From a virus: a stretch of 64,000 nt of DNA. The stretch lies in IMG/VR virus record IMGVR_UViG_3300048924_000100, positions 150,199-214,198 of that record; one strand, given 5' to 3'. This document shows positions 1,350-59,066 of the stretch, piece by piece (the first letter of the stretch is position 1; each line of letters starts with the position of its first letter). Below the pieces are notes generated by a model. It saw only the letters and a program-made list of their open reading frames with translations, made no database searches and had not been told where the DNA came from. Made by a program: the position numbers and the translations under genes.

Positions 1350-1384
1350 GGCGATGTTGCTGCGGCTGTAACACCGTAAGGTAG

Positions 1385-1414
1385 CTACTAAGGGCGAGCA
1401 ATCGCCCTTAGTAG
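1385..1414 (+). terminator. Hairpin terminator after the first head gene
   Basis: Perfect 13-bp stem (1385-1397 with 1402-1414) with a GCAA loop. The T tract downstream is interrupted. It separates the highly biased gene at 78 from the operon starting at 1491. Confidence 0.7.
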
Positions 1415-1490
1415 TCTTATGGCTGCATTTTGTTTTTTCAAGGGATGCTATAGGTTTTGCTACATATCCTTTTTAACAGGTACTTTTACC

Positions 1491-2543
1491 ATGACGCAAC
1501 CAGTGCTTGCTCGTCGTTTTATCAATACACCTACTGTTGAAGCACTCTACAACGCCGAGAATCCTGAAAGCGTTGTGGAAGCCTCGGATGACAAGATCGA
1601 TGATCTGTCGGATGAATACAACAAGGTGTCTGGAACTGAATCACTCTACTACCAGTACGTCTTCTCACACATCCCTCGCCAGCATGATCTTAACCGTGCG
1701 GGCAACGAAGGTTTCGTGAGCTGGATCGGTGATATGGTGAATGCTCTAATCACTGCTGTGAAGAACTTCTTCAAGTGGGTGTTCAGTTTCTTCACCGGTA
1801 AGAAAGAAGTAGCCGCTCGTCAGAATAAGGACCTCTTGGCACAACTGGATAAGAGTGGTGTGCGGAAACACTTCACCCACTACCCCAACGGTTACATGAC
1901 CCTGTGGGCCAGTAAGGCCAAGGTGCCTAACAACCTGGACTGGGTACTCAAGTCGGTTGACGACCTCGAGAAAGCCGCAGCTAAGGTTAAGGCTTACGTT
2001 AAGGAAGTCGGCGACGTCGTAGAGAAGGCCGAAGCAGCCTTTGTGGGCAAACAACTGAGCACGGCCAAGGAGAAGTTCGATAAACTCTTCAAGGATCACC
2101 ACGCTAATCTGGTGAAGATCTTTGGTGGCGATCCAGCTGCCTTTGTAGGCGGGACAACTGTCTCTGTCAACGCACACGGTAAGGTGGTAATGAAGGTAGA
2201 CCCTGATCTACTGGAAGCTGAGAAGAACGCCGGCTACCTGCCTAACGAAACCAAGACCCGTGAGATCGCCAAGGCATTGGACGGTACCAACAAGGTCTTC
2301 GCTGACGTTATCAATGATGCAGTCAAGTTGGAGAACGTGTTCGTCAAGAACCTGCAAGGGAGCCTGGCATTCGCCAAGAGCACAGAACTCGAGAATGAGG
2401 CTGTTGCTAAATCCATGGCAAGCGATCTGAACGAACTCATCCGAAACGGCATGGCCGGTATCAAGATTCTGGAGACCCTGATCTTTAAGGTCTATCAGTC
2501 TGTGTACCTGATTGCCAAGTCCAGCATCGAGACCAAAGGGTAA
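1491..2543 (+). CDS. Putative inner-body/head protein (350 aa)
   Basis: The start at 1491 is preferred over an in-frame upstream start because AACAGG lies at a usable distance and the upstream extension crosses AT-rich leader sequence. The acidic N-terminus ends in GTE at residues 48-50, a candidate prohead-protease site. Next comes an amphipathic, Trp/Phe-rich helix (about 73-100), then a mostly helical Lys/Ala-rich body. This mirrors the proteins at 78 and 3042. The following gene starts 6 bp after the stop, so they are co-transcribed. Proposed role: internal head protein cleaved on maturation. This rests on architecture and position, not on a recognised domain. Confidence 0.55.
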   Translation: MTQPVLARRFINTPTVEALYNAENPESVVEASDDKIDDLSDEYNKVSGTESLYYQYVFSHIPRQHDLNRAGNEGFVSWIGDMVNALITAVKNFFKWVFSFFTGKKEVAARQNKDLLAQLDKSGVRKHFTHYPNGYMTLWASKAKVPNNLDWVLKSVDDLEKAAAKVKAYVKEVGDVVEKAEAAFVGKQLSTAKEKFDKLFKDHHANLVKIFGGDPAAFVGGTTVSVNAHGKVVMKVDPDLLEAEKNAGYLPNETKTREIAKALDGTNKVFADVINDAVKLENVFVKNLQGSLAFAKSTELENEAVAKSMASDLNELIRNGMAGIKILETLIFKVYQSVYLIAKSSIETKG

Positions 2544-2549
2544 GCCACT

Positions 2550-3032
2550 ATGCGCTTGAATTGCTTTAATAAAACGCTGTTGGTCGCTAAGGTCATGGAG
2601 CAACAAGGCATCCAAGGAATGAACCCTCGTTTCGGGGCTGGTCGTTCTGTTAGCGATACCGTGTTCAGCTATCTTGAACTGGGTAGCAGCGGCACCGGGT
2701 TGCTTATTGACAAGGTTGACCTGGGCGAACTGTTTAAAGGTATCCCTCAGGACATCTCTGGTCTGACCTTCGATACTCCAGAACAAGTGAGCCTGGATGC
2801 GTTGCAGGTATTGGTAGACGACAAGGTAGAAGAATGCATTGTTGTCGGCGAAAGCCCCCTTACCGGTCAGGCAGATGACTTGTCGGTCCATTTCTACAAC
2901 TGGTTACGTCTCGTTGGTTTAAGCGACCTGTCCATCTTCGAAGTAGAGCTGGGTACGAGTGAGGGCAACCTCTACGTAACGGCTCGTCGGGCTGCGTACT
3001 ACTGCGGTACCGTGATCATCAAGTATCAATGA
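2550..3032 (+). CDS. Hypothetical protein in head-gene operon (160 aa)
   Basis: Not recognised. It is a mixed alpha/beta protein without membrane segment or signal peptide. It contains a Gly/Ser-rich stretch (about residues 45-53) and a C-terminal hydrophobic strand region (last ~20 residues). It lies between two putative inner-body genes, 6 bp after one and 9 bp before the next, so it is probably made with them. It could be a minor head protein or an assembly partner; there is no direct evidence for either. Confidence 0.65.
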   Translation: MRLNCFNKTLLVAKVMEQQGIQGMNPRFGAGRSVSDTVFSYLELGSSGTGLLIDKVDLGELFKGIPQDISGLTFDTPEQVSLDALQVLVDDKVEECIVVGESPLTGQADDLSVHFYNWLRLVGLSDLSIFEVELGTSEGNLYVTARRAAYYCGTVIIKYQ

Positions 3033-3041
3033 GGTGTGAGC

Positions 3042-4469
3042 ATGAATTTGTACTTTGAGCTGGGGCTGGTCAGTCTGCTGCTGTCCGGCAAAGCTGGAAA
3101 GCTGGACGCTGAAAAGAATCCAGTGATGGTTGAGTTACTCCGTTCCATGGGTCTCGACTACGTTGTTGACGCTGATAGCACTGACGAGAGTTCTGCTAAA
3201 GAACGTCTCTTCCGTATCGTGGCTGCGCTGGAAGACCGTCTGGCGTATTACGACGGCAGCGAGCTGCTGGTTAACTGGCCGGTGAATCAGTACCTCAATG
3301 AGTTGCTGCAGAACGTTCACACCGGTGACTTCACTCCAGAACGCAATGTGGCCATGCAGGTCTGTGCGTTGGGTAACAAGTCGTCTGACAATATGTCGGG
3401 CAGTGCGGTTACCGAGTGGATCGAGTTCTCTCACAAGAACCTGCGCTACTTCATTGATCTCTACGAGGGCCATGAACAGCCTAACATCGTAGCGATCCAG
3501 TCGCAGATCCGTTCGATCGAATACGCCGAGAAGGTGTTGAACATCGTTGACGTATTTGTGACCAGCCGCTTGGGTATGTTCATGGGTGTGGAGGAGTTTC
3601 ATCCTTCGCAACTGGAAGACTTGCCTGAGCCATCTGAGCCGGACTTCGAGCCACCGGAAGACTGCCAGAAGAATGCTGACTGCGACTGCGGTTGTATTGC
3701 GGATCACACGCTTCAGCTGATTCAAGGTATGGAAGACTACCTGAACGGTGTAAACAGTTATGCGGCTAACTACCTCATCGGTGCCGCCAGTGGCCACAAT
3801 GCCCGTATGAGCGCTGTAGAAGGCACAGAAGGCGCAATCCTTGATGGTATCAAGGAAATGGCAATGAAGGCCTGGGACATGATCACAGAGTCCTTTAAAG
3901 CCATCCAGGGGTGGTTCTCCTCTAACGAGAGCACCTCTGATACCAAAGCGGTAGCCGAAGCAGCGGAATCCAACAAGAAGGACCTAGTAGCGGCCAAGGA
4001 AGGCAGCGGGGATCAAATCAACCCTCAGGCCAAAGCTAGCCTGGTAAAGCTGGCAGCTGAAGCAGATCCATCGGGTGCGTTCAGCGCCATTGTGGGTAGC
4101 CTCAACACCAAGGCTGACGCAGCATCCTGCCTGGACAAGCTCCTGGGTCTGTTGAAAAAGCAAGAGGGCCCAGCAGGTGGTTTGGACGCTCTCCTGGATC
4201 TGGCAAAGGATAAGCTTGCCGAACTGAAGACTGCCGCCAGCAATGTGACTGGTAAAGATGAAAAGAACAAGGAAGTTGTGGGTACTGCTAAGAAGGGTAC
4301 ACAGGAAAGTATTGCGGCGGCCAAAGAAGCGGTTGCACGAGTGAAAGAGAAAGTTACCGCGCACAAGAAACTGGTGTCTGGTATCCGCAAAGCAGTTAGC
4401 GGGATCAACACCAAGATCTTCCCAGCTGTAGAGCCTAAAGAAGCGCCTAAAGGCGATAAGAAGGAGTAA
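3042..4469 (+). CDS. Putative inner-body/head protein with cysteine cluster (475 aa)
   Basis: GAGGTG precedes the ATG at 3042; a GTG two codons upstream is less likely. The N-terminal ~255 residues form a separate domain with a Cys cluster at 208-218 (four Cys within 11 residues). Then AVE (258-260) and GTE (261-263) form a double candidate protease site. An amphipathic Trp/Phe-containing helix follows (about 264-295), then a Lys/Ala-rich helical tail. The downstream part is organised like the proteins at 78 and 1491, so this looks like the third paralogue with a much larger N-terminal region. The propeptide function is inferred. The next gene begins 5 bp after the stop. Confidence 0.55.
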   Translation: MNLYFELGLVSLLLSGKAGKLDAEKNPVMVELLRSMGLDYVVDADSTDESSAKERLFRIVAALEDRLAYYDGSELLVNWPVNQYLNELLQNVHTGDFTPERNVAMQVCALGNKSSDNMSGSAVTEWIEFSHKNLRYFIDLYEGHEQPNIVAIQSQIRSIEYAEKVLNIVDVFVTSRLGMFMGVEEFHPSQLEDLPEPSEPDFEPPEDCQKNADCDCGCIADHTLQLIQGMEDYLNGVNSYAANYLIGAASGHNARMSAVEGTEGAILDGIKEMAMKAWDMITESFKAIQGWFSSNESTSDTKAVAEAAESNKKDLVAAKEGSGDQINPQAKASLVKLAAEADPSGAFSAIVGSLNTKADAASCLDKLLGLLKKQEGPAGGLDALLDLAKDKLAELKTAASNVTGKDEKNKEVVGTAKKGTQESIAAAKEAVARVKEKVTAHKKLVSGIRKAVSGINTKIFPAVEPKEAPKGDKKE

Positions 4470-4474
4470 CGGTA

Positions 4475-5179
4475 ATGGCCTTGGAAAACGTTCACCCGGT
4501 GGTTCTCGAGCGTATCAAGAACCAGCTACCCGACGGCTTCACGGTTCTGAGCGCTGTTGCTGAATCCGAAAGCAAAACTGCGTTCTTGGTTGAACAGAAC
4601 GGTATTACTCAAAAGGCCTACATGCTCAAGGGTAATCTCTTGCAGGTGATGGCTCACAAGGCGCCTGAGGTCTCAGCCAAAGAAGGGGATCTCCTGGGCG
4701 CTGTCGTGCAAGAACTGTCTGATGCGTACCAGCTCCACCTGTTGGATAAGGTGGACTACAACGTCGACGACCTGTTGGTCGAGTTCGTGGGTAAAGATCA
4801 GGTCCAGGTTTCTGTTTCGATCCTGCCCACCAGTACCAGTCTCAGCGGTGTGCTGATCTTCACCGTCAGGAACAAGGATGCGGCTGCTCGTCCTCTGAAG
4901 CAGAGCACCCTCGATCTGGAAGAGCATCGTGTCCGGTTAGCCCTGGCAGGTAAAGTGTTTGAAGTTACTGACCCTGAACCGGTTAACCCCGACAAGACTC
5001 TTACGCAAGAGTTCGCTGAACAGCTGGAAGAGTTTGTAGGCTCGCTGGGTTTCACAACACCGCCTACGGCTGATGACTTCCAGTTGGCTGACGTGCTCAG
5101 CCAGTTGCATGACGGTATCTCGGCTCTGGTGATTATCAAGTTGCCAAGTGACCTGGTTGTTCCTGTGCGCTGGAAGTAA
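4475..5179 (+). CDS. Hypothetical protein closing the head operon (234 aa)
   Basis: Not recognised. AAGGAG lies just upstream of the ATG. The sequence is rich in Val/Leu/Asp and alternates predicted beta strands and helices; no transmembrane segment or catalytic motif is visible. It is the last gene before a terminator hairpin at 5193-5219, so it belongs to the 1491-5179 unit of putative inner-head genes. A minor virion or assembly role is a guess from context. Confidence 0.6.
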   Translation: MALENVHPVVLERIKNQLPDGFTVLSAVAESESKTAFLVEQNGITQKAYMLKGNLLQVMAHKAPEVSAKEGDLLGAVVQELSDAYQLHLLDKVDYNVDDLLVEFVGKDQVQVSVSILPTSTSLSGVLIFTVRNKDAAARPLKQSTLDLEEHRVRLALAGKVFEVTDPEPVNPDKTLTQEFAEQLEEFVGSLGFTTPPTADDFQLADVLSQLHDGISALVIIKLPSDLVVPVRWK

Positions 5180-5192
5180 CCCTTACTGATCG

Positions 5193-5219
5193 GTAATGGA
5201 AGGTAACCCCTTCCATTAC
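5193..5219 (+). terminator. Rho-independent terminator
   Basis: 11-bp perfect stem (5193-5203 with 5209-5219), followed by a T-rich tract. It ends the 1491-5179 operon. Confidence 0.8.
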
Positions 5220-5253
5220 TTATCTTTTTATTTTCATTATTGAGCATACACCC

Positions 5254-6774
5254 ATGATGCTGAAATCAATGGTAATGTCTGAAGATGACTATGCATCGTT
5301 CTTTCGCCCTGCGGTGTTGGATTCTCTCAGACAAGTTCTAAAGTTCTACAGCTTGGACAATGCCTCGCAAATCATTTATAACGGCGAGAATGATGTTGCC
5401 AAGTTGATTGGCAGTAACTCTGATGACGGTCTGCGTGGTGACATGTACACCGATGGCGTCTTCCGTAACAAACTGTTCATCGTGGTAGAGAAAGAAGACA
5501 CCCCATTTAACACCGGTTATTCCAACCAGCGTCGTGAACCGACCGAACGCCCGGTATGGTTAACCGATGACGAAGAGCCTATGGGGCTGTACCCAGCCTT
5601 CTCTGGCGTAAAGGTTAACGTCTCTGTAGTGGCCTCGTTTAACAGCAGCAAGCTGGCAGACCACTACGTGCGCCGTATCAACCGTGTTCGTGATAACCAG
5701 ATGGCTGACATGGCGTTCAGTGCTACGGTCCACCTGGGCGTTAACAACGGTATCCTGGCGTGCATGCAGGATATCCATACACTACTGCTCAAGAACGATC
5801 CGACTACTCCTGAGTTTGGTGAGTGGTTCAACAAGTATTGCCAAGTACCGTTCACTACCATCTCCAACGTGGCAGGTAAGAACAAACGTCTGGTAGTTCC
5901 ACAGCGTTTGGACTTCATCGGTATTCAGTTCTCTGATCCAGAGATCCAGCGTTCTCGTAAAGGTTCCACTATCGGTAAGTATGAAGTCGAGTTCAAATAC
6001 TTCTTCTACTTCAACGAGTTCACCAACTGGGAGTTCTTCTACCCATTGGACGTTTATCAGGATGAGATTCCTGAGAAGTGGATCCCTATCCCTAACGAGC
6101 AGTTTGTTCGACCGTTCAACGTACGGGTGGCCCCTGAAGTAGCCTGGGGTCTGTCTAACCAGACCACCCGTCAGCAGGAAGCCCCTTACTTCATGAAGTT
6201 GCCTAAGCATGATCCTTGGGTAATGAAGCGAGTACCTTTCGTACAGCCTATCATTCAGGCACGGTTGTCGGTGGATAACATCGAGAACCAGGAGCTGGTC
6301 AACATCTTCGAGATTCCAGGCTTTAAATGGAATGAGCAAGTCAAGGCTTACATGCTTCGTCGTCGCGATGTGGCGTTCACTCAATACGCTACGCCGTTCC
6401 TGGTCTGGGTGTACAGCAACAACCTGCGTATTCTGCCTACTCAGTTGAGTATGGACGAGACAGGCTCTGTAAGGCTCTCCAGGCTGCCTACGATGAAAAA
6501 TGTGCACCACATCGTGGTAACCCTCGATTATGCGATCCGGGACTACACAGACGCTTTCTGGGAGGATCTGTATCAGAACCCTCAGGACCTCAATCTGTTG
6601 CCGGCCATTTTCCCGTGGTATCGCTGGGACAAGTTGCCTGAACCTTGGCTGGATCATATCCACCAGATCCGCAAAGACATCGATAAGGGCTTAGGGCTGC
6701 CGGGGGATAATCCAACCCGGTACATGATGAACCTCGGTCTTAACAGTTACGTATTGGTAGAGGACAAACGCTAA
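5254..6774 (+). CDS. Probable virion structural protein (506 aa)
   Basis: No catalytic motif is visible. The protein is rich in aromatic residues and Asn/Asp, with many predicted beta strands, as in phage baseplate or neck proteins. Three in-frame ATGs lie at 5254, 5269 and 5275; none has a strong ribosome site, so the start may be a few residues later. It opens a four-gene block in which the next genes start at 6774 (1-bp overlap), 8060 (4-bp overlap) and 8803, implying translational coupling and probably one assembly. In phiKZ-like genomes such blocks upstream of the capsid gene encode virion proteins. Confidence 0.55.
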   Translation: MMLKSMVMSEDDYASFFRPAVLDSLRQVLKFYSLDNASQIIYNGENDVAKLIGSNSDDGLRGDMYTDGVFRNKLFIVVEKEDTPFNTGYSNQRREPTERPVWLTDDEEPMGLYPAFSGVKVNVSVVASFNSSKLADHYVRRINRVRDNQMADMAFSATVHLGVNNGILACMQDIHTLLLKNDPTTPEFGEWFNKYCQVPFTTISNVAGKNKRLVVPQRLDFIGIQFSDPEIQRSRKGSTIGKYEVEFKYFFYFNEFTNWEFFYPLDVYQDEIPEKWIPIPNEQFVRPFNVRVAPEVAWGLSNQTTRQQEAPYFMKLPKHDPWVMKRVPFVQPIIQARLSVDNIENQELVNIFEIPGFKWNEQVKAYMLRRRDVAFTQYATPFLVWVYSNNLRILPTQLSMDETGSVRLSRLPTMKNVHHIVVTLDYAIRDYTDAFWEDLYQNPQDLNLLPAIFPWYRWDKLPEPWLDHIHQIRKDIDKGLGLPGDNPTRYMMNLGLNSYVLVEDKR

Positions 6775-8063
6775 TGGGCCTAAAGACCACTCCCTTGGGG
6801 CAGGAACTTCCTCCAGAACCGGAACGTCCCAAGATTTATAGCAACACGTACAAGCACACCATTGTAGACTCGGCCTATACGCCTGAGACGTCGTTACTGA
6901 CAATGGTAGACGGTACTCCGCGGTTGATGGAGTACTATCGTCGGGAACTGGGACCTGACGAAGAGTTGAGTACCTTCCAACCGGATAACTCGGCTGTCTA
7001 TCAGAGCTACGCCCGCATCAAGAACCTGGTCGGTAAACAGGACGGTGCCGGCGCTTACGCCTTCGACCCGACTACCGGTCAATCCAGCGGTACGTTCGAG
7101 ATGTGGTTGGCGTTCGATCTGAACCCGTTGCAGTATGACGTGGCGATCATGGACATCGGTGAGGGCCGCGCAGGTCTGTTCCACATCACCCAGCAACCAG
7201 AGATCCGTAACGACACCTCCAACAAGGTCTACCTCTGTACCTTTGAGAAACTCGGTATCCTTACCGAAGATCTCTTTGCGCAGTTGGATATCCGTGTTGT
7301 TAAGGAATGGGTCTACTCGAAGGACTCGGCGCTGCACGGTGGTATCGCTATCATTACTGATAACGAGTTCACTACGGCCAAGGAGTTGTTCGACTGGCGT
7401 CTGACGATTGCTAACTGGTTGATGAACACCTTCTACTGGAACCCTGAGCGGACAATTGCCTGGGAAGACGGTAACGGGCGGAAGATCTACGACCAATACC
7501 TGGTGAAGTTCCTGGCGGCTCAAATGCCGGCTGACCTCAGAACCTCCTATCCTCCAATTAACCTGTTCTCTACGCAGTACGGTGGACGGGAATACGGTGG
7601 CTTTGGTGATATCACCATCTGGGAGATTCTGATGCGCGGAGACTTCAATCTCCTGCCCATGGTCAAGAACTCCGAGATAACGATCGTCTCCACCAACCGT
7701 CTGATCAATACCCGTCAATACGGTAACTTGCGTTCCAGCAAGTTCGATTGGGTGGTTGTAGCGGATCCCGAACGTTACCAGATCCAACGGGCGTATTTCA
7801 ACATGGATGGCTTCCCACTGTTAGCCTCCAGCCCGGAATACAAAACGACCTACTTGTTCACCCCTCAGTTCTACGAAGGCCTACCCCAGAATGAGTTTGA
7901 ACACCTGGTGGTAGATGCCCTGAAGAACCAGATGGTAGACCGGGAGAAACTCCTCGCTTATTGCAAGGGGTACTTCGCTCTGGACAAGTGGCAACAACTC
8001 TACCACGGCGCGATCCTGTTGCTGTTGATTCAGGTGAGCCGTAAGTTCGGACCTCCGATATGA
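6774..8063 (+). CDS. Probable virion structural protein (429 aa)
   Basis: The ATG overlaps the stop of the previous gene by one base, and its own stop overlaps the next start. The protein begins with a Pro/Glu-rich segment, then shows an aromatic, mixed alpha/beta sequence with many Trp/Tyr and no membrane segment apart from a hydrophobic Leu-rich run near the C-terminus (about 413-422). No family is recognised. Tight coupling to its neighbours and the lack of enzyme motifs suggest a structural subunit of the same complex as the 5254 product. Confidence 0.55.
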   Translation: MGLKTTPLGQELPPEPERPKIYSNTYKHTIVDSAYTPETSLLTMVDGTPRLMEYYRRELGPDEELSTFQPDNSAVYQSYARIKNLVGKQDGAGAYAFDPTTGQSSGTFEMWLAFDLNPLQYDVAIMDIGEGRAGLFHITQQPEIRNDTSNKVYLCTFEKLGILTEDLFAQLDIRVVKEWVYSKDSALHGGIAIITDNEFTTAKELFDWRLTIANWLMNTFYWNPERTIAWEDGNGRKIYDQYLVKFLAAQMPADLRTSYPPINLFSTQYGGREYGGFGDITIWEILMRGDFNLLPMVKNSEITIVSTNRLINTRQYGNLRSSKFDWVVVADPERYQIQRAYFNMDGFPLLASSPEYKTTYLFTPQFYEGLPQNEFEHLVVDALKNQMVDREKLLAYCKGYFALDKWQQLYHGAILLLLIQVSRKFGPPI

Positions 8064-8800
8064 AAATGCTTTATCCTCGTTACGGCGCTGTGCGGAATCG
8101 GTTGATTGAACTGCACGGCGTGTTGAACCATCGGGTCTATGGAGTCTGGGTGGCTCCTAAGTCCCTGATGTCGATGGATGACCTCCGCGAACGTTACCAC
8201 AATAACCAGCAGGGGTTTGCCAACGATACCAACTACTACGACGAACCCCAGCTGCGGCAAATGAAGGTTCCACAGATCCTGAGCTTCATGGGTAATCTGT
8301 TGGGACCCGAGGACATCGGCTTCCAGAAGGCTAACGATGCAATCCCAGGTATTTACGAATCCATTCAAGAGTACCTGGCGTTGTGGTGTGAGATGATCCG
8401 GACGGTACCAGAGTTCAAGGCCCCTCCTCGTGAGGAGCTACGACAGCTGGAGAGTCTGGCGTACATGCTGTTTCCTACGTATGCGAAGATCAAGCCCTTT
8501 GTGGTTAACCAGGCTATCCGTGATGCTGGTAAGGATAACAAGGCTCAGGAAGGCATGGGTCTGGCATCGCTTGGTATGCTGTTTACCATGACCCCTATGC
8601 TGAACAAGGGTGTTGGTCAGGATATCAGCTTTGTGAGCCACCTGGACGAGCTGGACAACCACGAGCAGCATCAGTACCAGGTCGACCACCAACAACCGGC
8701 TCCAGGTAACTTCTTCCCAACGCTGAAGATCTCCACTGACAGCTTACGGGACCTGGATACTTCAACCGACACTAACGACTGGATCTTCAAAGGAGACTAA
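8060..8800 (+). CDS. Hypothetical structural-block protein (246 aa)
   Basis: It starts inside an ATGA overlap with the previous gene, a sign of coupled translation. The protein is largely helical, with a hydrophilic His/Gln/Asp-rich segment around 200-225. A hydrophobic Gly/Met/Leu stretch (about 168-190) is probably not membrane spanning. It is not recognised. An AGGAG ribosome site for the next gene lies at its 3' end, so the four-gene block is likely one transcript. Confidence 0.55.
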   Translation: MKMLYPRYGAVRNRLIELHGVLNHRVYGVWVAPKSLMSMDDLRERYHNNQQGFANDTNYYDEPQLRQMKVPQILSFMGNLLGPEDIGFQKANDAIPGIYESIQEYLALWCEMIRTVPEFKAPPREELRQLESLAYMLFPTYAKIKPFVVNQAIRDAGKDNKAQEGMGLASLGMLFTMTPMLNKGVGQDISFVSHLDELDNHEQHQYQVDHQQPAPGNFFPTLKISTDSLRDLDTSTDTNDWIFKGD

Positions 8801-8802
8801 TC

Positions 8803-10161
8803 ATGGAGATGCCAAAGCCAATAGCCAACATCATCGCTCACGCTAATGCCCTTGATCAAGTGGGTAATGAGCGGATCTTTACTGTTGACGCCATGGTGGT
8901 CACTCCTACTGAGCAGATCCCCTTGTTGATCCCTAACGGGTTTGCCTGCTTGTCGTTGTTCGGACCTGCCCATGGGGGTGGTATCTCCCACAGCGACAAC
9001 GCGCGTATCAAGGCACAGATCCAACCGGGTGTCTACATGCGTAAGGTATTGCCCAATAAGGATAACCTCTTCATTGAGGTGACCGAGCGGGTAGGCTTCC
9101 AGCAGGTGATGCGCCGCTGGCGTGCAGTGCCCCTGGGTGACTCTGATCCAGAGATGCAGGGTGGTAACTCGGCAATGGCTGACTTGTCAACCAAAGACGA
9201 CACCAACATGATTACCGTATCCTTCCAGTTGTTTGAGACAGGTTATGCCTTGCTCAAGAACGAGTTGGTTTCGGATACCCTGTTGATGGCCACGCTTAAG
9301 GATGTGCTGCATGGCATTCTGACGGATTACGGTAGTCGACTTACCCTGACAGGTGGTGATGCGTTTAAGGGCGTGAACATCGAAGAGCCTGTGGACAATG
9401 CTCGGGTCTTCAGTCATGTGGCTATTCCTGCTGCCGTACCTCTGGTTAAACTGGGGATGTGGATGCAGGAGCATGACGAGTTCGGGTTCTACAACACGGG
9501 CTTGGGGATGTACTACAGGAAGGGTATGTGGTGGGTTTACCCACAGTACCGCACAGGACGGTATGAGACGGCTCCTAAGGTACTTAACGTGTACCGGGTG
9601 CCTGAAGACGTGATACCCACTCTGAAGCGCTCCTACTTCCAGGAAGGGAAGGCTCTGACGGTTCTGTCTACTGGTGGTGGGGTTACCAAAGACGGATCCG
9701 ACATCAAGAAGCAGAACGTGGGTACGGGTAAGCGGATTGTTACCGCAGATGCGGCTATGGCTGAGACTGGGGTGTACTACAACAAAGGTCAGGCCATGAC
9801 CACCCGTGCTGACTCCCTGTCCGAGTACCAGACCTCTAAGCGTGCCAGTGGCGAAGAGATGGTGAGCTATCATGCAGAGCCTACCAACAACCTCTGTAAG
9901 CACCTGACAGAGAACGCAAAGAACGACGGTAACCTGGTGCAGGTATCTTGGCACAACTCTGACGCTTCGCTGATTGATCCGGCTATGCCTGTTCGTTACT
10001 TCTACATGAGCGGTAGTAACAACCTCGTGTACAAGGAAGGCACTGTGCATGTAATCAAGTCAGAGTGGCAGATGGATACCCAAAGCACTGGGCAACCTAC
10101 CTTCAGGGAGATTTCTCTTTTGGGGCTGTTCATCTCCGATGACGAGATACTGGTGGAATAA
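8803..10161 (+). CDS. Probable virion structural protein (452 aa)
   Basis: AGGAG is well placed before the ATG. The sequence is beta-rich, with short strands broken by Gly/Asn/Asp turns, and holds a Trp/Tyr-dense patch around 235-260. A disordered Ser/Thr/Lys/Gly-rich region follows (about 285-345) before a final beta region. This pattern is common in baseplate or neck proteins, but I do not recognise a family. It is the last gene of the 5254-10161 block; a hairpin terminator lies 100 bp downstream. Confidence 0.55.
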   Translation: MEMPKPIANIIAHANALDQVGNERIFTVDAMVVTPTEQIPLLIPNGFACLSLFGPAHGGGISHSDNARIKAQIQPGVYMRKVLPNKDNLFIEVTERVGFQQVMRRWRAVPLGDSDPEMQGGNSAMADLSTKDDTNMITVSFQLFETGYALLKNELVSDTLLMATLKDVLHGILTDYGSRLTLTGGDAFKGVNIEEPVDNARVFSHVAIPAAVPLVKLGMWMQEHDEFGFYNTGLGMYYRKGMWWVYPQYRTGRYETAPKVLNVYRVPEDVIPTLKRSYFQEGKALTVLSTGGGVTKDGSDIKKQNVGTGKRIVTADAAMAETGVYYNKGQAMTTRADSLSEYQTSKRASGEEMVSYHAEPTNNLCKHLTENAKNDGNLVQVSWHNSDASLIDPAMPVRYFYMSGSNNLVYKEGTVHVIKSEWQMDTQSTGQPTFREISLLGLFISDDEILVE

Positions 10162-10257
10162 ATCTTCAGCCAGTTCCCTATGCCTATGCTCGAAAGAGTA
10201 GAACTCTTGGGAAACCAGGGGGGAGGGAAGGTGGGAAATTCACGATATAGACTAAGC

Positions 10258-10276
10258 CCCTTACCGTAGGTAAGGG
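10258..10276 (+). terminator. Terminator after the structural block
   Basis: 8-bp stem (10258-10265 with 10269-10276), GTA loop, then TTTC. It lies in the 148-bp gap after 10161; the rest of that gap is Gly/purine-rich and holds no convincing gene. Confidence 0.65.
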
Positions 10277-10309
10277 TTTCATTCTTCTGCTGTGGGGAGT
10301 AGGCGTCAA

Positions 10310-10507
10310 ATGAAAAGAACATTAAGTATCATTCCACCATCATTGTTGCGAAGCCATGTTAAACAAAATGGTCTGGTGCCGGTACCTGAACCTTTTAACC
10401 GTGAACTGTTGCCTTCGACAGCAACCCTGCTCGGTTTCATGCGTACTTGGGTTCAAAATGCTGAGGCCACGACCAAAGGACTGGAGGAACTGGGAAATGC
10501 TAAATAA
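10310..10507 (+). CDS. Small hypothetical protein (65 aa)
   Basis: Short basic-then-acidic protein with a central Pro-rich segment (residues ~25-38) and a C-terminal helix. A G-rich purine stretch upstream could serve as ribosome site. It overlaps the next small gene by 11 bp in another frame, an arrangement more typical of a real gene pair than of chance frames. Function unknown. Confidence 0.5.
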   Translation: MKRTLSIIPPSLLRSHVKQNGLVPVPEPFNRELLPSTATLLGFMRTWVQNAEATTKGLEELGNAK

Positions 10508-10640
10508 CCTTACCAAGAAAAAACTGACCATACTTGGCCTGATCTTCCCAAAGCCCTCCAAAAAGCAGCAAGAGGCGCGAGCGGAACTTGCCAAGGCAGA
10601 TCACGACAAATTGATTGAAAGCGCTCTACGCGTGTTGTAG
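10497..10640 (+). CDS. Small hypothetical protein (47 aa)
   Basis: The ATG at 10497 has GGAGG upstream, inside the end of the previous gene. The product is Lys-rich and helical with a short hydrophobic N-terminal run (LTILGLIF). It ends just before the bidirectional terminator at 10659-10698. Function unknown; it is too short for the family to be guessed. Confidence 0.45.
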   Translation: MLNNLTKKKLTILGLIFPKPSKKQQEARAELAKADHDKLIESALRVL

Positions 10641-10658
10641 CTCGTTGTAGCGGCTATA

Positions 10659-10698
10659 TTAATACCCTAACCGCTCGTAGGAGCGGTTAGGGTATTAA
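10659..10698. terminator. Bidirectional terminator between convergent units
   Basis: Perfect 18-bp inverted repeat (10659-10676 with 10681-10698) with a GTAG loop, placed between the rightward small genes and the leftward helicase. A/T-rich flanks on both sides let it work in both directions. Confidence 0.85.
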
Positions 10699-10715
10699 GC
10701 TCCATTATATTTTCT

Positions 10716-12260
10716 TTATGCGGCTACACCGAAGTGATCGAAGTCATTCTCTAATTCGCCATTCTCATTTAGTCGTTGTGTCAAGCTACGACGGAAAGCA
10801 GGTTTCTTGTTAATGTCGTGAATCAAGCCTTGGTCAGGATGGAGATCATAGATCCCGAACCGTTCCTCTGGCAGACAACCCTCGCCCCGTTGTTTACCTA
10901 CGCAATAGGTGAAGTAAACTTTGAAGGTTGTTTTGGCCACATGGATGGTGATGACCACATCCACTTCGTTGGTAATCTTGGTCGATGTTTCAGTAAGCGA
11001 CTTACCAGAAACCTCTCGAGCAAAATATACCTCAGACTCTTCGTCAGATTCCTGTAGCTTCATCTTGGCTGCTGGAGACAATTGATGAGGAGTAAGGAAG
11101 CTGATACCGCGAGCAATAATGAAACCCCTGATCTTCCGGAAGTGCATTTGCAGCTTGTCGGACTTTGTTTCGCCAGGGATCTTGTCGATGTTTTGCAGAC
11201 CGCAGTAGTCGTAGGCCCAGAAGATAATCTCGTGACCTTTGAGTTCCAGTTGACGGCAACGGGCGAACATGGTGTTAGCCGAGTCTTTACTGGAATCAAT
11301 TTGGTTGATGATGAGATACCAACCATTTTCTTTAAAGCAACCCACAATAGCGCTAACGATATCGTCGTTGGCAGCCAGTTGGAAGTCAGACGTCTCGCCA
11401 TGACGTGCAGAGAGCGCCAACTTGTACATGCGCATGATGATCAGGTCCATGGTGTCTTCAGCAGACTCCAGGAGGATCGTAGGGATCTTGGCTTTGTCCC
11501 TGAGCATTGGTTTGTTGTACAGTCCAATACTCGCTACCATGTGACTTGTTGCCAAAGACTTACCTCGGTTAGTAAGTGCTTCGATCATGTACATCTTGCC
11601 ACGGCGGAAACCACCGTCAGGATTCAGGGCAATGTTCAAACCCTGGATACCGGTCTTCATGATACCTTCCAGACTGTTCTCACGCTTAGCCATGTCAATG
11701 ACTGCGTTAAACGAATCAGGAGTTTCAGAAGTAACTTGAGCAACTACTTCAGACTGTCGCTCTTCAAAGCCTTGGTTAACACCAGACTGTACCAGATCGA
11801 TCAGGTTAGCCCAATCGTCTTTGCCCATGTCATTCAGATCTTTGAAGTAGAAGTCCTTAATAGCCTTCTTGAACTTCTTGGAGAACTCTTCACCTTCTGA
11901 GTTCAAACGGATCTCAGAGATGTGCTGATAGATCAGTTTGCGGGTCTGTTCATCCGTCGCTTGATCTTCCAACCCGTGAGTGATGGCCTCTTTCAGACCG
12001 TCATCGTTCTTGATGAACATGTTCACACGTTGCAACAATGCTGATTTTATGACCGGTTCATCTTCAGGCTGTTTTAACAGCCAGTGGATAGTTGCGCGAA
12101 TGCTGTCTCGAATACCTTTGTCTTGTGTGAAAACATCAGCATTGGGTACAGGCAACTCGTTTAACGTATCTACCAGTTCCGTGATTAGGTTAGTGTCCTT
12201 CAGCTTCTTAGCCTGATACAACGCGGACAACAACTTAACCAGTACCAATAAATCGTTCAT
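10716..12260 (-). CDS. DnaB/RecA-like replicative helicase (514 aa)
   Basis: The N-terminal ~190 residues are helical, as in DnaB-like N-domains. The core begins with a GxxNRGKS Walker A (227-235: EALTNRGKS). It continues with a glutamate-containing strand (LLESAED), a hydrophobic Walker B ending in Asp (IIFWAYD, ~residue 327) and a TPHQLSP segment at the position of the DnaB sensor motif. These support a hexameric NTPase that unwinds the phage DNA fork. It is transcribed leftward, against nearly all neighbours, and its start is only 23 bp from a divergent gene. A RecA-type recombinase is possible, but the large N-domain favours helicase. Confidence 0.75.
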   Translation of the reverse strand: MNDLLVLVKLLSALYQAKKLKDTNLITELVDTLNELPVPNADVFTQDKGIRDSIRATIHWLLKQPEDEPVIKSALLQRVNMFIKNDDGLKEAITHGLEDQATDEQTRKLIYQHISEIRLNSEGEEFSKKFKKAIKDFYFKDLNDMGKDDWANLIDLVQSGVNQGFEERQSEVVAQVTSETPDSFNAVIDMAKRENSLEGIMKTGIQGLNIALNPDGGFRRGKMYMIEALTNRGKSLATSHMVASIGLYNKPMLRDKAKIPTILLESAEDTMDLIIMRMYKLALSARHGETSDFQLAANDDIVSAIVGCFKENGWYLIINQIDSSKDSANTMFARCRQLELKGHEIIFWAYDYCGLQNIDKIPGETKSDKLQMHFRKIRGFIIARGISFLTPHQLSPAAKMKLQESDEESEVYFAREVSGKSLTETSTKITNEVDVVITIHVAKTTFKVYFTYCVGKQRGEGCLPEERFGIYDLHPDQGLIHDINKKPAFRRSLTQRLNENGELENDFDHFGVAA

Positions 12261-53824: not shown

Positions 53825-54307
53825 ATGAGCAAGAAAGAACCCCCTATTACCTACAAGGTGCATACGGACGGCAGTGCGCTGGGTAACCCAGGTCCTGGAG
53901 GTTATGGGATTGTAGCGAGATGCGGAGACGAGGTTGTCACACTCTCGAAAGGTTACAAGCGTACGACTAATAACCGTATGGAACTCTTGGGCGTAATTGT
54001 AGCCCTTGAGACAAACGCTAAGCCCGGTGTACTGTTTGAGATCACCACAGATTCCATGTACGTGATCAATGGCGCTACCAAGTGGATCAGCAGCTGGCAG
54101 CGTAGCAACTGGATCACCTGGAAGACCCAGGAGCCTGTGAAGAACAAAGACCTGTGGCAGCGGATCGCTCCTTTGCTTAAAGCCAACAAGGTTAAGTTCT
54201 TCTGGGTTAAAGGCCATACGGGCGTACCGGATAACGAGCTGGCAGACAAGCTGGCGGTAGAAGCGGCTAACAATCCAACTGAAGTCGACGAAGGCTTCCT
54301 GGGGTAA
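53825..54307 (+). CDS. rnhA: Ribonuclease HI (160 aa)
   Basis: All catalytic residues are visible: Asp15 (HTDGSALGNPGPGG), Glu53 (NNRMELLG), Asp76 (TTDSMYV), His131 and Asp141 (KGHTG...NELAD). The length matches bacterial RNase HI. It cleaves RNA in RNA-DNA hybrids, for example Okazaki primers or R-loops. It heads a compact operon with a DHH phosphodiesterase and a 2H phosphoesterase. Confidence 0.92.
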   Translation: MSKKEPPITYKVHTDGSALGNPGPGGYGIVARCGDEVVTLSKGYKRTTNNRMELLGVIVALETNAKPGVLFEITTDSMYVINGATKWISSWQRSNWITWKTQEPVKNKDLWQRIAPLLKANKVKFFWVKGHTGVPDNELADKLAVEAANNPTEVDEGFLG

Positions 54308-54623: not shown

Positions 54624-55547
54624 ATGGCTTTGAAGACTGATACTGAGTTTAAACCTGTTCTGTGCATCTATCACAAAGACTGTCTGGACGGCATCGGTGC
54701 CGCATGGGTGGTGTGGCGCCATTTCAAGAACATGGGTATTGACATCGAGTTGGTGGCTGCTGCTTACAAAGACAAGCTGCCGGTCGTCGATGGCAAGGTG
54801 GTTTACGTAGTTGACTTCAGTTATCCGCGCGATGTCATGGTAGAACTGTTAGGGCGTGCGCATGACGTGGTGGTTCTGGATCACCATACCAGTGCCAAAA
54901 GAAACCTGGAAGGGCTCTTCGTTGTCGACGAGAGTCATTCTGGCGCCATGCTGGCCTGGAAGTATTTCAATAGCACTCCTCCACCAGAAGGTTTGCTGTA
55001 CGTTGAAGACCGAGACCTGTGGAAGTTCAAATACCCGAATACCAACAATTGGGTAACCGCAGCGTTCTCCTATCCGTTCAACGTTGAGCAGTTCGATGCA
55101 CTGATGAACAGCGACCCACTGGACCTCATCCACGAGGGCAAGATCCTGTTGCGTAAGCACCAGCAAGACACCGGTCGTGTAGCATTGAACGCCCGCATGA
55201 TGAAGTGCATGGGGTATACGGTACCCGTGGTAAACGCCAACATTTTCTTTGCGTCTGACCTGGGCGACATGCTCTCCAAGGATTACCCGTTCGCACTGAT
55301 CTACATGGATCTACCACACGGACGTAAGTACTCCATTCGCTGCCAGAAGAAGTGTATGGACGTTTCCAAGATCGCCGAATACTTTGGTGGTGGCGGTCAT
55401 GCTGACGCCTCGGGTTTCTCGATCCGTTATGACGACAAGCGTTTTGCCCGTAGTCATGAAGTGCTCGACTATTCGTTGCGCGACAAGATCATGGCTTATC
55501 TGAAGAACCCAATCGTCACGCTGAAGTTTCTACTAGGGAAGAAGTAA
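54624..55547 (+). CDS. DHH/DHHA1 phosphodiesterase, NrnB-like (307 aa)
   Basis: Motif I is YHKDCLDG (16-23), motif II is VVDFS (Asp64), motif III is LDHHTS (85-90) and motif IV is VEDRDLW (127-133). The C-terminal DHHA1 signature is GGGGHADASGF (about 258). These define a two-metal DHH phosphodiesterase. Known members degrade short oligonucleotides (nanoRNA), pAp, or linear products of cyclic dinucleotides. Encoded in the same operon as the 2H-type protein at 56021, which could feed it linear products. Precise substrate unknown. G-rich ribosome site before the ATG. Confidence 0.8.
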   Translation: MALKTDTEFKPVLCIYHKDCLDGIGAAWVVWRHFKNMGIDIELVAAAYKDKLPVVDGKVVYVVDFSYPRDVMVELLGRAHDVVVLDHHTSAKRNLEGLFVVDESHSGAMLAWKYFNSTPPPEGLLYVEDRDLWKFKYPNTNNWVTAAFSYPFNVEQFDALMNSDPLDLIHEGKILLRKHQQDTGRVALNARMMKCMGYTVPVVNANIFFASDLGDMLSKDYPFALIYMDLPHGRKYSIRCQKKCMDVSKIAEYFGGGGHADASGFSIRYDDKRFARSHEVLDYSLRDKIMAYLKNPIVTLKFLLGKK

Positions 55548-55835: not shown

Positions 55836-55848
55836 AGAGATGCGACTC

Positions 55849-56016
55849 ATGGAAAGCGATAACCTGTTCTTTGTAGAAAGTGATCGTTACGGGTTCGGGT
55901 ACCTGATGGCCCCAGAGCGTTATGACGATATCCTCATCGCCACCGAGCGGCTGAAGACCCGTATCCAATCAGGCGCCACCCTGGTGCGTGTGGAAGTCAA
56001 ACGTACCAAGGGTTAA
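55849..56016 (+). CDS. Very small hypothetical protein (55 aa)
   Basis: ATG at 55849 with AAAGAG 9 nt upstream; an in-frame ATG at 55840 would put the ribosome site too close. The sequence begins MESDNLFFVESD, followed by a helix and a basic C-terminus (VEVKRTKG). It fills the gap between the 55548 and 56021 genes exactly, 4 bp before the next start, which supports it being real. Function unknown. Confidence 0.45.
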   Translation: MESDNLFFVESDRYGFGYLMAPERYDDILIATERLKTRIQSGATLVRVEVKRTKG

Positions 56017-56020
56017 GCAC

Positions 56021-56470
56021 ATGAAACCGGATTACAGTTACATCAGTGTGCAGCTTAAGTCAGAGATGCAGGCCGAGATCATTTCTACTCTGATCCTGGC
56101 GGGTATCTCTCCAGAAGCCAAACATGAACTACACGCCACCATGGTGTATGACGATCGCAGCATCGCAGCGCCGTTGTGCGACCTGGCGCCATCTTCCAAG
56201 GAATTCTCGGCGAACGTCATTGCCCTGGAAACTTTGGGGGACGGTCTGGTGTTCAAACTCACCAGCGTTGATATGCTGGAAGAGTTTCGCCGTTTAAAGG
56301 AAGCCGGGTATCAACACTCTTACGGCACGCCTTTGTTCCACATGTCGCTGAAGTATGACTTCGATAAGTATGACATCCTCGCGCTTAATCAGGCGTTTGC
56401 TAATTGGGGTGGTCGTACGCTGATCTTCAACAACGAGCAGTACGGTATCACGAAACCAAAGAAAACGTAA
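56021..56470 (+). CDS. 2H-family phosphoesterase, candidate anti-CBASS nuclease Acb1-like (149 aa)
   Basis: Two HxS/T motifs are present: ELHATMVYD (His38, Thr40) and FHMSLKYD (His107, Ser109), the signature of 2H phosphoesterases. The two histidines are 69 residues apart. The T4 anti-CBASS protein Acb1 (152 aa) is, from memory, built on the same H-x-T pair (His44, His113) with the same spacing. The flanking GYQHSYGTPLF before motif two also fits its E/Y-x-P-H context. Acb1 cuts cyclic oligonucleotide second messengers and so blinds CBASS immunity. Start at 56021 sits 4 bp after the previous stop. Alternatives: LigT/CPDase-like RNA phosphodiesterase. 2H membership is fairly firm, the anti-CBASS role is inferred. 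Confidence 0.6.
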   Translation: MKPDYSYISVQLKSEMQAEIISTLILAGISPEAKHELHATMVYDDRSIAAPLCDLAPSSKEFSANVIALETLGDGLVFKLTSVDMLEEFRRLKEAGYQHSYGTPLFHMSLKYDFDKYDILALNQAFANWGGRTLIFNNEQYGITKPKKT

Positions 56471-56477
56471 CTCGGTA

Positions 56478-56512
56478 CTACTCCTACTCCCTTTATCGGG
56501 GAGTAGGAGTAG
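56478..56512 (+). terminator. Rho-independent terminator closing the nuclease operon
   Basis: 14-bp perfect stem (56478-56491 with 56499-56512), followed after 7 bases by a T-rich tract. It ends the 53825-56470 operon. Confidence 0.85.
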
Positions 56513-56606
56513 GATACCTTTATTTTTTGCTTTTTGAGTTACAGCTTATTTCAGAACTACATCATCCGTGTGTATAAACAACATACTTCTTTTAGGAGTT
56601 ATCGAA

Positions 56607-56747
56607 ATGAGAACCGCGCTGTTCCTTATCGGGATGTTAAGCATTGTAACTTCCTGCGTAATGGTCGCGGGTCAGCTTGATACTTCCGACAACCTCAATA
56701 GCACTGAGTACATCACTCGGGGCATTATGCAAGCCATACAACGGTAA
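56607..56747 (+). CDS. Very small membrane or secreted peptide (46 aa)
   Basis: TAGGAG lies 8 nt before the ATG. Residues 2-24 are hydrophobic (ALFLIGMLSIVTSCVMVAG) and form a membrane helix or uncleaved signal; the Cys at 17 is not in a convincing lipobox. The C-terminal half is polar. It sits alone between the terminator at 56478 and the early promoter at 56781. Function unknown. Confidence 0.5.
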   Translation: MRTALFLIGMLSIVTSCVMVAGQLDTSDNLNSTEYITRGIMQAIQR

Positions 56748-56808: not shown

Positions 56809-56857
56809 ATTATTCGTATCTAAGAATAGTCTAACCCAATTTAACAGGAGCACCGCT

Positions 56858-58006
56858 ATGAATACCAAGAACCAAGAAGTTGCCAACATCGCTTCCATGA
56901 TGGTAGCGGTCATCACCCAACTTCGTACTGATGGCGCACCGGAGCCGATTCAATTGGCTTATGCTAAAACGGTGATGATGGATCAGGAACAGGTCAATAC
57001 TCGTGACCGCCAGCCTGTGCTTCAACTGGTGAACAACCAGCTCGGTACCAAATGGTCTTTCAACCAGATCAAGAAAGCCGAGAACTTCGTCCAGAACAAT
57101 GAACCAATCAAGGTTCAAGAACTGAACGGTACTGCACAGGTCAATGTCTCCGGCCAACCTGCTGAAGCCACTTTCGTTGAGAAGGCTCCTCAGGTTGATG
57201 GCCACGTGCACCTGCAACAAACCAACAACGCAGAAACCACTGCGCCTGACCAAGCCGGTCAAACTTCTTCTATCAACTCCACTGCAAACGAACAGGAAAA
57301 CGACACCATGAACGCACAAGTAAACGCTACCTCCAACATCGCTGAAAACGTTAAAGCCTTCGCACTGGCCATGTCCCTGGTCGGCCGCAACACCGCTGAA
57401 CAACGCGCCGAAGCCTGGACCGCGTTCATTGCTACCTCGCCTGAACAAGCTGCTCTGTGGGCTCTGTTCTCGGCAACTGCTGACGCCACCAAGTCGTTCG
57501 ACGAGAACTTCGTCACGTTCAGCGAAGGCCTGGGCGAAGAAGAAGGCAAGACTCTGGTCACCAACTTCATGCGCTGGTCTGCAGCTAACCAGCCAAAAGG
57601 TGATGCTCACTACTCCGACAAGTCGCGTTACAGCCTGATGGGCGATCGTGACGAAGGCATTCGTACCAGCTGGATCGCAGTAGGCTCCGCAGTGATCGGC
57701 GGTGGTATGGAAGCATTCGCCCGTGGTGGTCTGAACGTCGGTTCGGCGGTCGGTACCGTAGTGGGTGGTGTTGCTGCATTCTTCGCTGGTGAGCAGGTTG
57801 ACCAGCACGTAGAGAGCCAGTTCGGTCGCTACGTAGTCGGCGGCATGATCGGTCTGGGCCTGGGTGGTGCTGGTGCGGCCCTGGGTCGTAGCGTCCTGCC
57901 TGGTAACCCACTGCTCGAAATGAACAACAACGTCGCTGCTGCACCGGCTCGTATCGAAGCTCAGCCTACCGCGCCACAAGGCTCGCTCGGCTTCTTCGGC
58001 ATGTAA
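56858..58006 (+). CDS. Early two-domain protein with C-terminal glycine-zipper membrane region (382 aa)
   Basis: Residues 1-80 form a small helical domain. A Thr/Asn/Gln-rich linker (about 95-148) follows, then a second helical domain starting at an internal Met (151). From about 270 to 345 Gly/Ala-rich zippers (VGSAVIGGGMEAFARGG, GSAVGTVVGGVAAFFAG, VVGGMIGLGLGGAGAALG) predict membrane insertion and oligomerisation. Codon bias rises sharply after residue 150, and AGGA lies 10 nt before the internal ATG (57308), so a shorter 232-aa product may also be made. It stands alone behind an early promoter. Function unknown; a membrane effector made at infection onset is plausible. Confidence 0.6.
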   Translation: MNTKNQEVANIASMMVAVITQLRTDGAPEPIQLAYAKTVMMDQEQVNTRDRQPVLQLVNNQLGTKWSFNQIKKAENFVQNNEPIKVQELNGTAQVNVSGQPAEATFVEKAPQVDGHVHLQQTNNAETTAPDQAGQTSSINSTANEQENDTMNAQVNATSNIAENVKAFALAMSLVGRNTAEQRAEAWTAFIATSPEQAALWALFSATADATKSFDENFVTFSEGLGEEEGKTLVTNFMRWSAANQPKGDAHYSDKSRYSLMGDRDEGIRTSWIAVGSAVIGGGMEAFARGGLNVGSAVGTVVGGVAAFFAGEQVDQHVESQFGRYVVGGMIGLGLGGAGAALGRSVLPGNPLLEMNNNVAAAPARIEAQPTAPQGSLGFFGM

Positions 58007-58108: not shown

Positions 58109-58426
58109 ATGACTGAAGAATTCAAAGTCCGCGACAAAGTAATCGTGGCAAACGAAGAAAATGCTAACGCCAACCGTGTGGTTGAGTTGGTTGCTTACGT
58201 ACACCCTGGCAACACCGTGCACCACTTCGACGGTTACTTTACCGCTGATGTGGAAGGTGGCTGGATTGTTACTGCGCAAGACCTGGTTCGCAAGACCAAC
58301 TTCCGCGGGGAGATCATCAGCGACTTCGCTTTGGTGAAGCCATCTGAAATCCGTGAACTTGGTGCCGAGGAGGTTGCTTTCCTCCCAAAGCCCAAGGTGA
58401 ATAACCGTTACATGGTAGCAGCCTAA
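58109..58426 (+). CDS. Small beta-barrel-like protein (105 aa)
   Basis: GAAGGAAC lies before the ATG. All-beta sequence starting with a VRDKVIV strand and a central GGWIVTAQDLV segment that recurs as DGWIVSGDDLW in the protein at 58743; together with strand spacing this suggests an SH3-like small barrel. Expressed singly, with biased codons. Function unknown. Confidence 0.55.
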   Translation: MTEEFKVRDKVIVANEENANANRVVELVAYVHPGNTVHHFDGYFTADVEGGWIVTAQDLVRKTNFRGEIISDFALVKPSEIRELGAEEVAFLPKPKVNNRYMVAA

Positions 58427-58742: not shown

Positions 58743-59066
58743 ATGAACTACCAGAATCTGCAAGTAGGGGATATCTGCATCGTTGTAACAAGTGACCCCA
58801 AAATTGAAATCAATAATCTCGGTCGTTGTGTAACGCTCGAGAAGTTTGTTCCTGCTGGCGCGGGGCATCTGGAGTTTAACGGTGTTAAATACCAGTGTAT
58901 CTCCGAAGACGGCTGGATTGTAAGCGGTGACGATCTCTGGTGCTGGTCAATGCGCGACGGATACCACAAGTCTGCACACACCGGTGTTTACGCTCGTCGC
59001 CTAAGAAAGATTGGCGATAAAGATTGTTCCAACATTAAATCAACTGGAAGGGAAGTAACAGCATGA
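58743..59066 (+). CDS. Small early protein, SH3-like barrel (107 aa)
   Basis: First gene behind the early promoter at 58708. The N-terminal half is beta-rich (VGDICIVVTSD), then comes GVKYQCISEDGWIVSGDDLW, which parallels the middle of the 58109 protein; the C-terminus is basic. Cys residues are scattered. It overlaps the next gene by 4 bp. Probably a distant paralogue of 58109. Function unknown. Confidence 0.55.
   Translation: MNYQNLQVGDICIVVTSDPKIEINNLGRCVTLEKFVPAGAGHLEFNGVKYQCISEDGWIVSGDDLWCWSMRDGYHKSAHTGVYARRLRKIGDKDCSNIKSTGREVTA

Follow-up and report, generated by a model that had tools for sequence, protein, structure and literature searches.

The gene described here, acb1, encodes a 149-aa protein that, judged from homology, is certainly a member of the Acb1 family of 2H phosphoesterases, and this protein probably opens the adenine-ring cyclic oligonucleotides of CBASS-type defences. 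It lies in a window of 64,000 nucleotides, the whole stretch of DNA analysed, which forms the final 64 kb of a virus record that is 214,198 bases long. A sequence-only reading of the window had proposed an Acb1-like 2H phosphoesterase on the strength of an open reading frame with both 2H motifs, and translation reproduced its coordinates, length and motifs: the frame at 56021-56470 (+) has no internal stop and carries H38-A-T40 and H107-M-S109, 69 residues apart. The features of the locus are as follows.

53825..54307, + strand: RNase H, conserved neighbour and yardstick of vertical inheritance
54624..55547, + strand: DHH/DHHA1 phosphoesterase, 307 aa (phrog_4771, 5e-83; DHH and GGGH motifs visible)
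55840..56016, + strand: 58-aa open reading frame, probably co-transcribed with acb1, its stop 4 nt upstream of the acb1 start
56008..56012, + strand: probable ribosome binding site AAGGG, 8 nt upstream of the ATG at 56021 (from the sequence)
56021..56470, + strand: acb1 gene, Acb1-family 2H phosphoesterase, 149 aa (translation, profile, fold, alignment)
56474..56518, + strand: hairpin, probable intrinsic terminator directly 3' of acb1, with a T-rich tract downstream at 56519-56536
56858..58006, + strand: 382-aa protein, no Pfam or PHROG match, glycine-rich C-terminal part

The ATG at 56021 occupies the same start position in close relatives. The region 56465-56540 has a fold energy of -31.9 kcal/mol (z -5.8 vs shuffles), and the hairpin at 56474-56518 was absent from the list of a simple consensus terminator scan. 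From these signals, acb1 is apparently the last gene of an operon. Between its terminator and the 382-aa gene lies a small ORF (56607-56747, +), whose start, MRTALFLIGMLSIVTSC, resembles a lipoprotein or secretion signal.

The assignment to the Acb1 family is carried by homology. In Pfam, the product matches one family, Acb1 (PF23474), with an E-value of 7.2e-8 and a score of 32.7 bits, above the curated cut-off of 27, and in PHROGs it matches phrog_755 (8e-18). When 18 family members encoded on related viral contigs are aligned, Y7, H38, T40, H107 and S109 are invariant. All 18 aligned proteins match PF23474 (best 1.3e-15), and the generic 2_5_RNA_ligase2 family is matched by nine of them (best 3e-5). 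The score above the cut-off, the phrog_755 match and the invariant tetrad together make the homology certain. The length and the His-His spacing resemble those of T4 Acb1 (57B), as the earlier reading had noted; the T4 protein has 152 aa with H44 and H113 at the identical spacing. The motif pair on its own is not rare, since two Hx[ST] motifs 60-80 residues apart occur in 1.5% of shuffles of the acb1 product and in 3 of the window's 91 ORFs that are 100 aa or longer; it was therefore rejected as sole proof, and the case for Acb1 rests on homology.

Comparison with solved structures agrees with this assignment. With phmmer, the single protein gave only spurious repeat-protein matches against the PDB, and the 18-sequence profile was needed, which detected the Acb1 chains 9q2g (3.2e-8), 9q2y and 7t26 (7.2e-6) and no other significant match. 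An AlphaFold2 model of the product (mean pLDDT 88.8, pTM 0.80) was then compared by Foldseek with the PDB, and its five best matches were all solved Acb1 structures. The closest is a Burkholderia phage BCSR5 phosphodiesterase, named Acb1 in the PDB (9q2g, 9q2y), at 1.9e-7 and TM 0.72 for 9q2y, with 19% identity to the acb1 product and no place in the neighbourhood analysed here; the FBB1 Acb1 structures follow (7t26, 4.8e-5; 7t27, 1.3e-4). Among viral models (BFVD), the RisingSun 'Anti-CBASS protein Acb1' was matched at 5.5e-15 and TM 0.86, below it came further jumbo-phage proteins named Acb1 in UniProt, and the top named matches were all Acb1. The Acb1 family is already established, and in UniProt its name is assigned automatically to the RisingSun, Miami and other homologues. 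EL gp126, RisingSun gp120, Aphrodite1 gp165, OBP_061 and Miami gp080 are direct homologues, about 28-48% identical where aligned full-length.

In RefSeq these five homologues are called 'RNA ligase', as is phrog_755 in PHROGs, which would fit a housekeeping 2',3'-cyclic phosphodiesterase or a 2'-5' RNA ligase-like enzyme of phage RNA metabolism. Such a role is also favoured by the adjoining genes for RNase H, DNA ligase and a DHH phosphoesterase, and by the co-divergence of acb1 with RNase H in the manner of a core gene. However, T4 57B, a proven Acb1 (NC_000866), bears the same 'RNA ligase' label, and so do many RefSeq records of jumbo phages; the label is an old misnomer of the 2H superfamily and a widespread misannotation, and it thus has no weight for ligase function. 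The LigT, ThpR and CPDase models of Pfam and NCBIfam gave no match to the product even at E 10. The LigT, ThpR and CNPase enzymes have the 2H fold and the paired HxT/S motifs in common with it, but their fold matches are far weaker: 5.5e-3 for the ThpR-like 1vdx, 2.2e-2 for LigT (5ldk) and about 4e-2 for CNPase. CPDase is likewise a far poorer fold match than Acb1, and the poxvirus cGAMP PDE is matched at about 2e-2. The comparison of Acb1 with LigT and ThpR, which the sequence-only reading had proposed as a refuting test, thus came out on the side of Acb1, and RNA processing is a very improbable role for this protein.

The active site of T4 Acb1 comprises the catalytic residues H44, T46, H113 and T115, the base-stacking residues Y12, W74, F107 and W147, the adenine contact E141 and a lid formed by residues 145-152 (PMC9117128). 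These residues were mapped onto the acb1 product under five alignment settings with a sequence-based strand register. The T4 and FBB1 enzymes have the 2H fold, the HxT/HxT(S) tetrad, the 69-residue spacing and a near-identical length in common with it, and the aromatics Y12 and F107 have counterparts. Six positions are kept (Y12-Y7, H44-H38, T46-T40, F107-Y101, H113-H107 and T115-S109), with Ser in place of T115. Catalysis by the product is accordingly predicted to be intact from the alignment. That the protein is an inactive relic or a binding-only sponge, as its altered pocket residues might suggest, is extremely improbable: the four catalytic positions do not vary in the 18 sequences, and dN/dS is about 0.1.

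The base-reading half of the pocket differs from that of T4 and FBB1 Acb1. In the same register under all five settings, W74 corresponds to L72 and E141 to G142, while W147 aligns to K148 in four settings and to a gap in one; the lid tryptophan is missing, and the C-terminal lid region is a short Lys-rich tail (block pLDDT 71). The adenine-reading E141, a specificity residue of T4 and FBB1 that defines neither fold nor family, is thus missing. E139 was considered as its equivalent and rejected, since the full family alignment and four more settings pair E139 with E138 and G142 with E141. The changes belong to the EL lineage as a whole: the W74 column holds Leu in 13 of 13 EL-lineage proteins, the E141 column Gly in 11 and Ser in two, and the lid position Lys or nothing. 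Among 11 T4-clade proteins, E141 is present in all, W147 in nine and W or F at position 74 in ten, although position 74 varies (W/F/S) within this sample. BCSR5 Acb1 retains a Trp in the W74 region. In the midpoint-rooted tree, a T4 clade splits from a jumbo-phage clade with support of 91/91, and the acb1 product, about 16% identical to T4 Acb1 over the whole alignment, falls within a well-supported EL-type group. With W74, E141 and W147, three of the five base contacts described for T4 and FBB1, changed in the EL lineage, the base selection of T4 Acb1 cannot be transferred to this protein.

The rebuilt half of the pocket gives rise to another reading, in which an Acb1-family enzyme opens a cyclic nucleotide that is not among the adenine-containing di- and trinucleotides of CBASS, for instance a ring built only of guanine or of pyrimidines, or some different signal derived from nucleotides. 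Its support lies in the replacement of E141 by Gly142 or Ser, of W74 by Leu72 throughout the EL-lineage sample and in the loss of the lid W147, all stable to the alignment settings, together with the finding that E141 accounts for the requirement of T4 Acb1 for adenine (PMC9117128). We consider it unlikely, since the adenine contact could come from other pocket residues, the related Gorgonvirinae retain Glu at the E141 column, and the register of the last strand comes from sequence alignment. It is doubtful in the same measure that the EL-lineage Acb1 forms a subfamily that acts on other signals than T4 Acb1 or on a broader set of them, extending for example to adenine-free rings.

With an intact tetrad and a fold nearest to Acb1, the reading with the best support is that the acb1 product opens a ring-shaped oligonucleotide, and cleavage of such molecules by it is likely.

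The carrier had been taken for a phiKZ-like phage that shields its DNA in a nucleus, and the sequence supports a phage of this predicted type. No close nucleotide relative was found in the phage collection; at the protein level, the best relatives are phages of the Pseudomonas EL type (48%). A nuclear shell protein is encoded (phrog_4795, 4.5e-115 in PHROGs; ChmA profile, 3.5e-9), and the record holds EL-type RNA polymerase subunits of the phiKZ type that are 53-60% identical to those of EL. The phiKZ chimallin as a single-sequence query missed the whole EL group, and the shell protein was detected by the profile and PHROGs. EL and OBP are listed among the chimallin-encoding phages (PMC10299810). 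The gene content supports a jumbo, phiKZ-like and EL-like phage of the nucleus type. Tad2 (PF11195) was not found in the same genome; the Acb2/Tad1 hairpin (PF24729) also gave no match there, in a search that missed phiKZ as well and is therefore uninformative for Tad1. As a separate observation, residues 1-247 and 613-1036 of the EL gp39 RNA polymerase match back to back at 8169-11441 of a piece of the same genome outside the window, and parts of EL gp39 243-622 match a separate place downstream. The pattern looks like an intein or similar insert in EL gp39 that the present genome lacks, and a related element stands free in the vicinity.

The gene order around acb1, namely ligase, p499, RNase H, DHH, Acb1 and p382, is that of EL gp122-gp127, so that EL has the entire neighbourhood in common with this locus. 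T4 Acb1 sits in the 57A/ipI locus, whereas the EL-lineage neighbourhood is of replication type (ligase, RNase H, DHH), with no obvious anti-defence island. In 13 of 13 distinct EL-like loci, the first conserved gene after acb1 is the 382-aa gene; the opposite strand at 56831-57979 is also a 382-aa open frame. Beyond it, two adjacent small proteins (58109-58426 and 58743-59066, +), both of phrog_2529, are apparently paralogues. In 9 of the 13 EL-like loci, the DHH/DHHA1 gene lies near acb1, and the enzyme it encodes could break down the short linear molecules that Acb1 would release. A two-step DHH-Acb1 degradation unit with DHH as an obligate partner was nevertheless rejected, because DHH is absent near acb1 in the other four loci as well as in the RisingSun and Aphrodite relatives.

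In the Escherichia jumbo phage EJP2 (positions 853-7186 of a piece of its genome), a homologue lies among genes for nicotinamide phosphoribosyltransferase, NMN adenylyltransferase and SIR2, and in GAP32 the Acb1 homologue is close to Sir2. Nicotinamide phosphoribosyltransferase and NMN adenylyltransferase are a known NAD-restoring counter-defence of phages. The EJP2 genes are possibly an anti-defence cluster, and they hint at a setting of this kind.

Pairwise identities of Acb1 and of the neighbouring RNase H across 18 phages are closely correlated (Mantel r 0.92, p 0.0001). The dN/dS of acb1 against close relatives, about 0.1, is like that of RNase H, although synonymous sites are near saturation and the ratio is rough. 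acb1 has been inherited vertically over a long time under purifying selection. Its distribution among nucleus-type phages is patchy: among the phages checked, Acb1 is present in EL, RisingSun, Aphrodite1, OBP and the Raoultella, Stenotrophomonas and Miami relatives, and it was not found in phiKZ, 201phi2-1, Noxifer, Goslar, RAY and Eowyn.

A counter-defence of this kind makes sense in such a phage. CBASS type III-C blocks a phiKZ-like phage that forms a nucleus by a factor above 10^5 (PMC10889362), so that phages of this type need a counter. The phage nucleus would be unable to block CBASS because the signal and the effectors act outside it. In the proposed mechanism, the acb1 product would be made in the host cytoplasm as a metal-independent 2H phosphodiesterase and would bind the small cyclic oligonucleotide alarm signal of CBASS or a related cyclase system. 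Cleavage of 3'3'-cGAMP and cAAA has been shown for T4 Acb1 and nine of its homologues; Acb1 turns one base so that the 2'-OH can attack the 3'-5' bond, and the metal-free reaction proceeds by way of a cyclic phosphate (PMC9117128). Here, the H38xT40/H107xS109 tetrad may likewise drive the attack of the ribose 2'-OH on the 3'-5' bond; the ring would open by way of a 2',3'-cyclic phosphate and end as a linear molecule, and the CBASS effector would never be switched on. The product may in this way cover a defence beyond the reach of the phage nucleus.

For jumbo phages, a 2026 review names no described anti-defence protein other than Tad1 (PMC13282480), and the parts consulted of this and another review of jumbo and nucleus-forming phages (PMC12908238) do not mention Acb1. 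According to the former, Tad1 of phiKZ has an anti-CBASS role in a nucleus-forming jumbo phage, but Tad1 is a sponge and the acb1 product a predicted enzyme. Within the open-licence papers searched, one was found that brings together Acb1 and Chimalliviridae, through a database match in Pseudomonas phage Milchi (PMC11780129), and no report was found of the pocket changes of the EL lineage, the core-like inheritance or the patchy distribution among nucleus phages.

Nucleus-forming phages exclude DNA-cutting defences, yet they are exposed to defences that act through small-molecule signals. Acb1 is inherited vertically in the lineages of EL, RisingSun, Aphrodite and OBP, and it was not found in phiKZ, 201phi2-1, Noxifer, Goslar, RAY and Eowyn. 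From this distribution it is predicted that nucleus-type phages with Acb1 would withstand adenine-based CBASS better than those that lack any comparable counter-defence. The changed pocket of the EL lineage allows direct tests of substrate specificity within the Acb1 family. Should these proteins form a subfamily with a rebuilt pocket, the EL-lineage Acb1 would be a distinct anti-signalling, near-core enzyme, alternating with counter-defences such as Tad1 across this group of phages.
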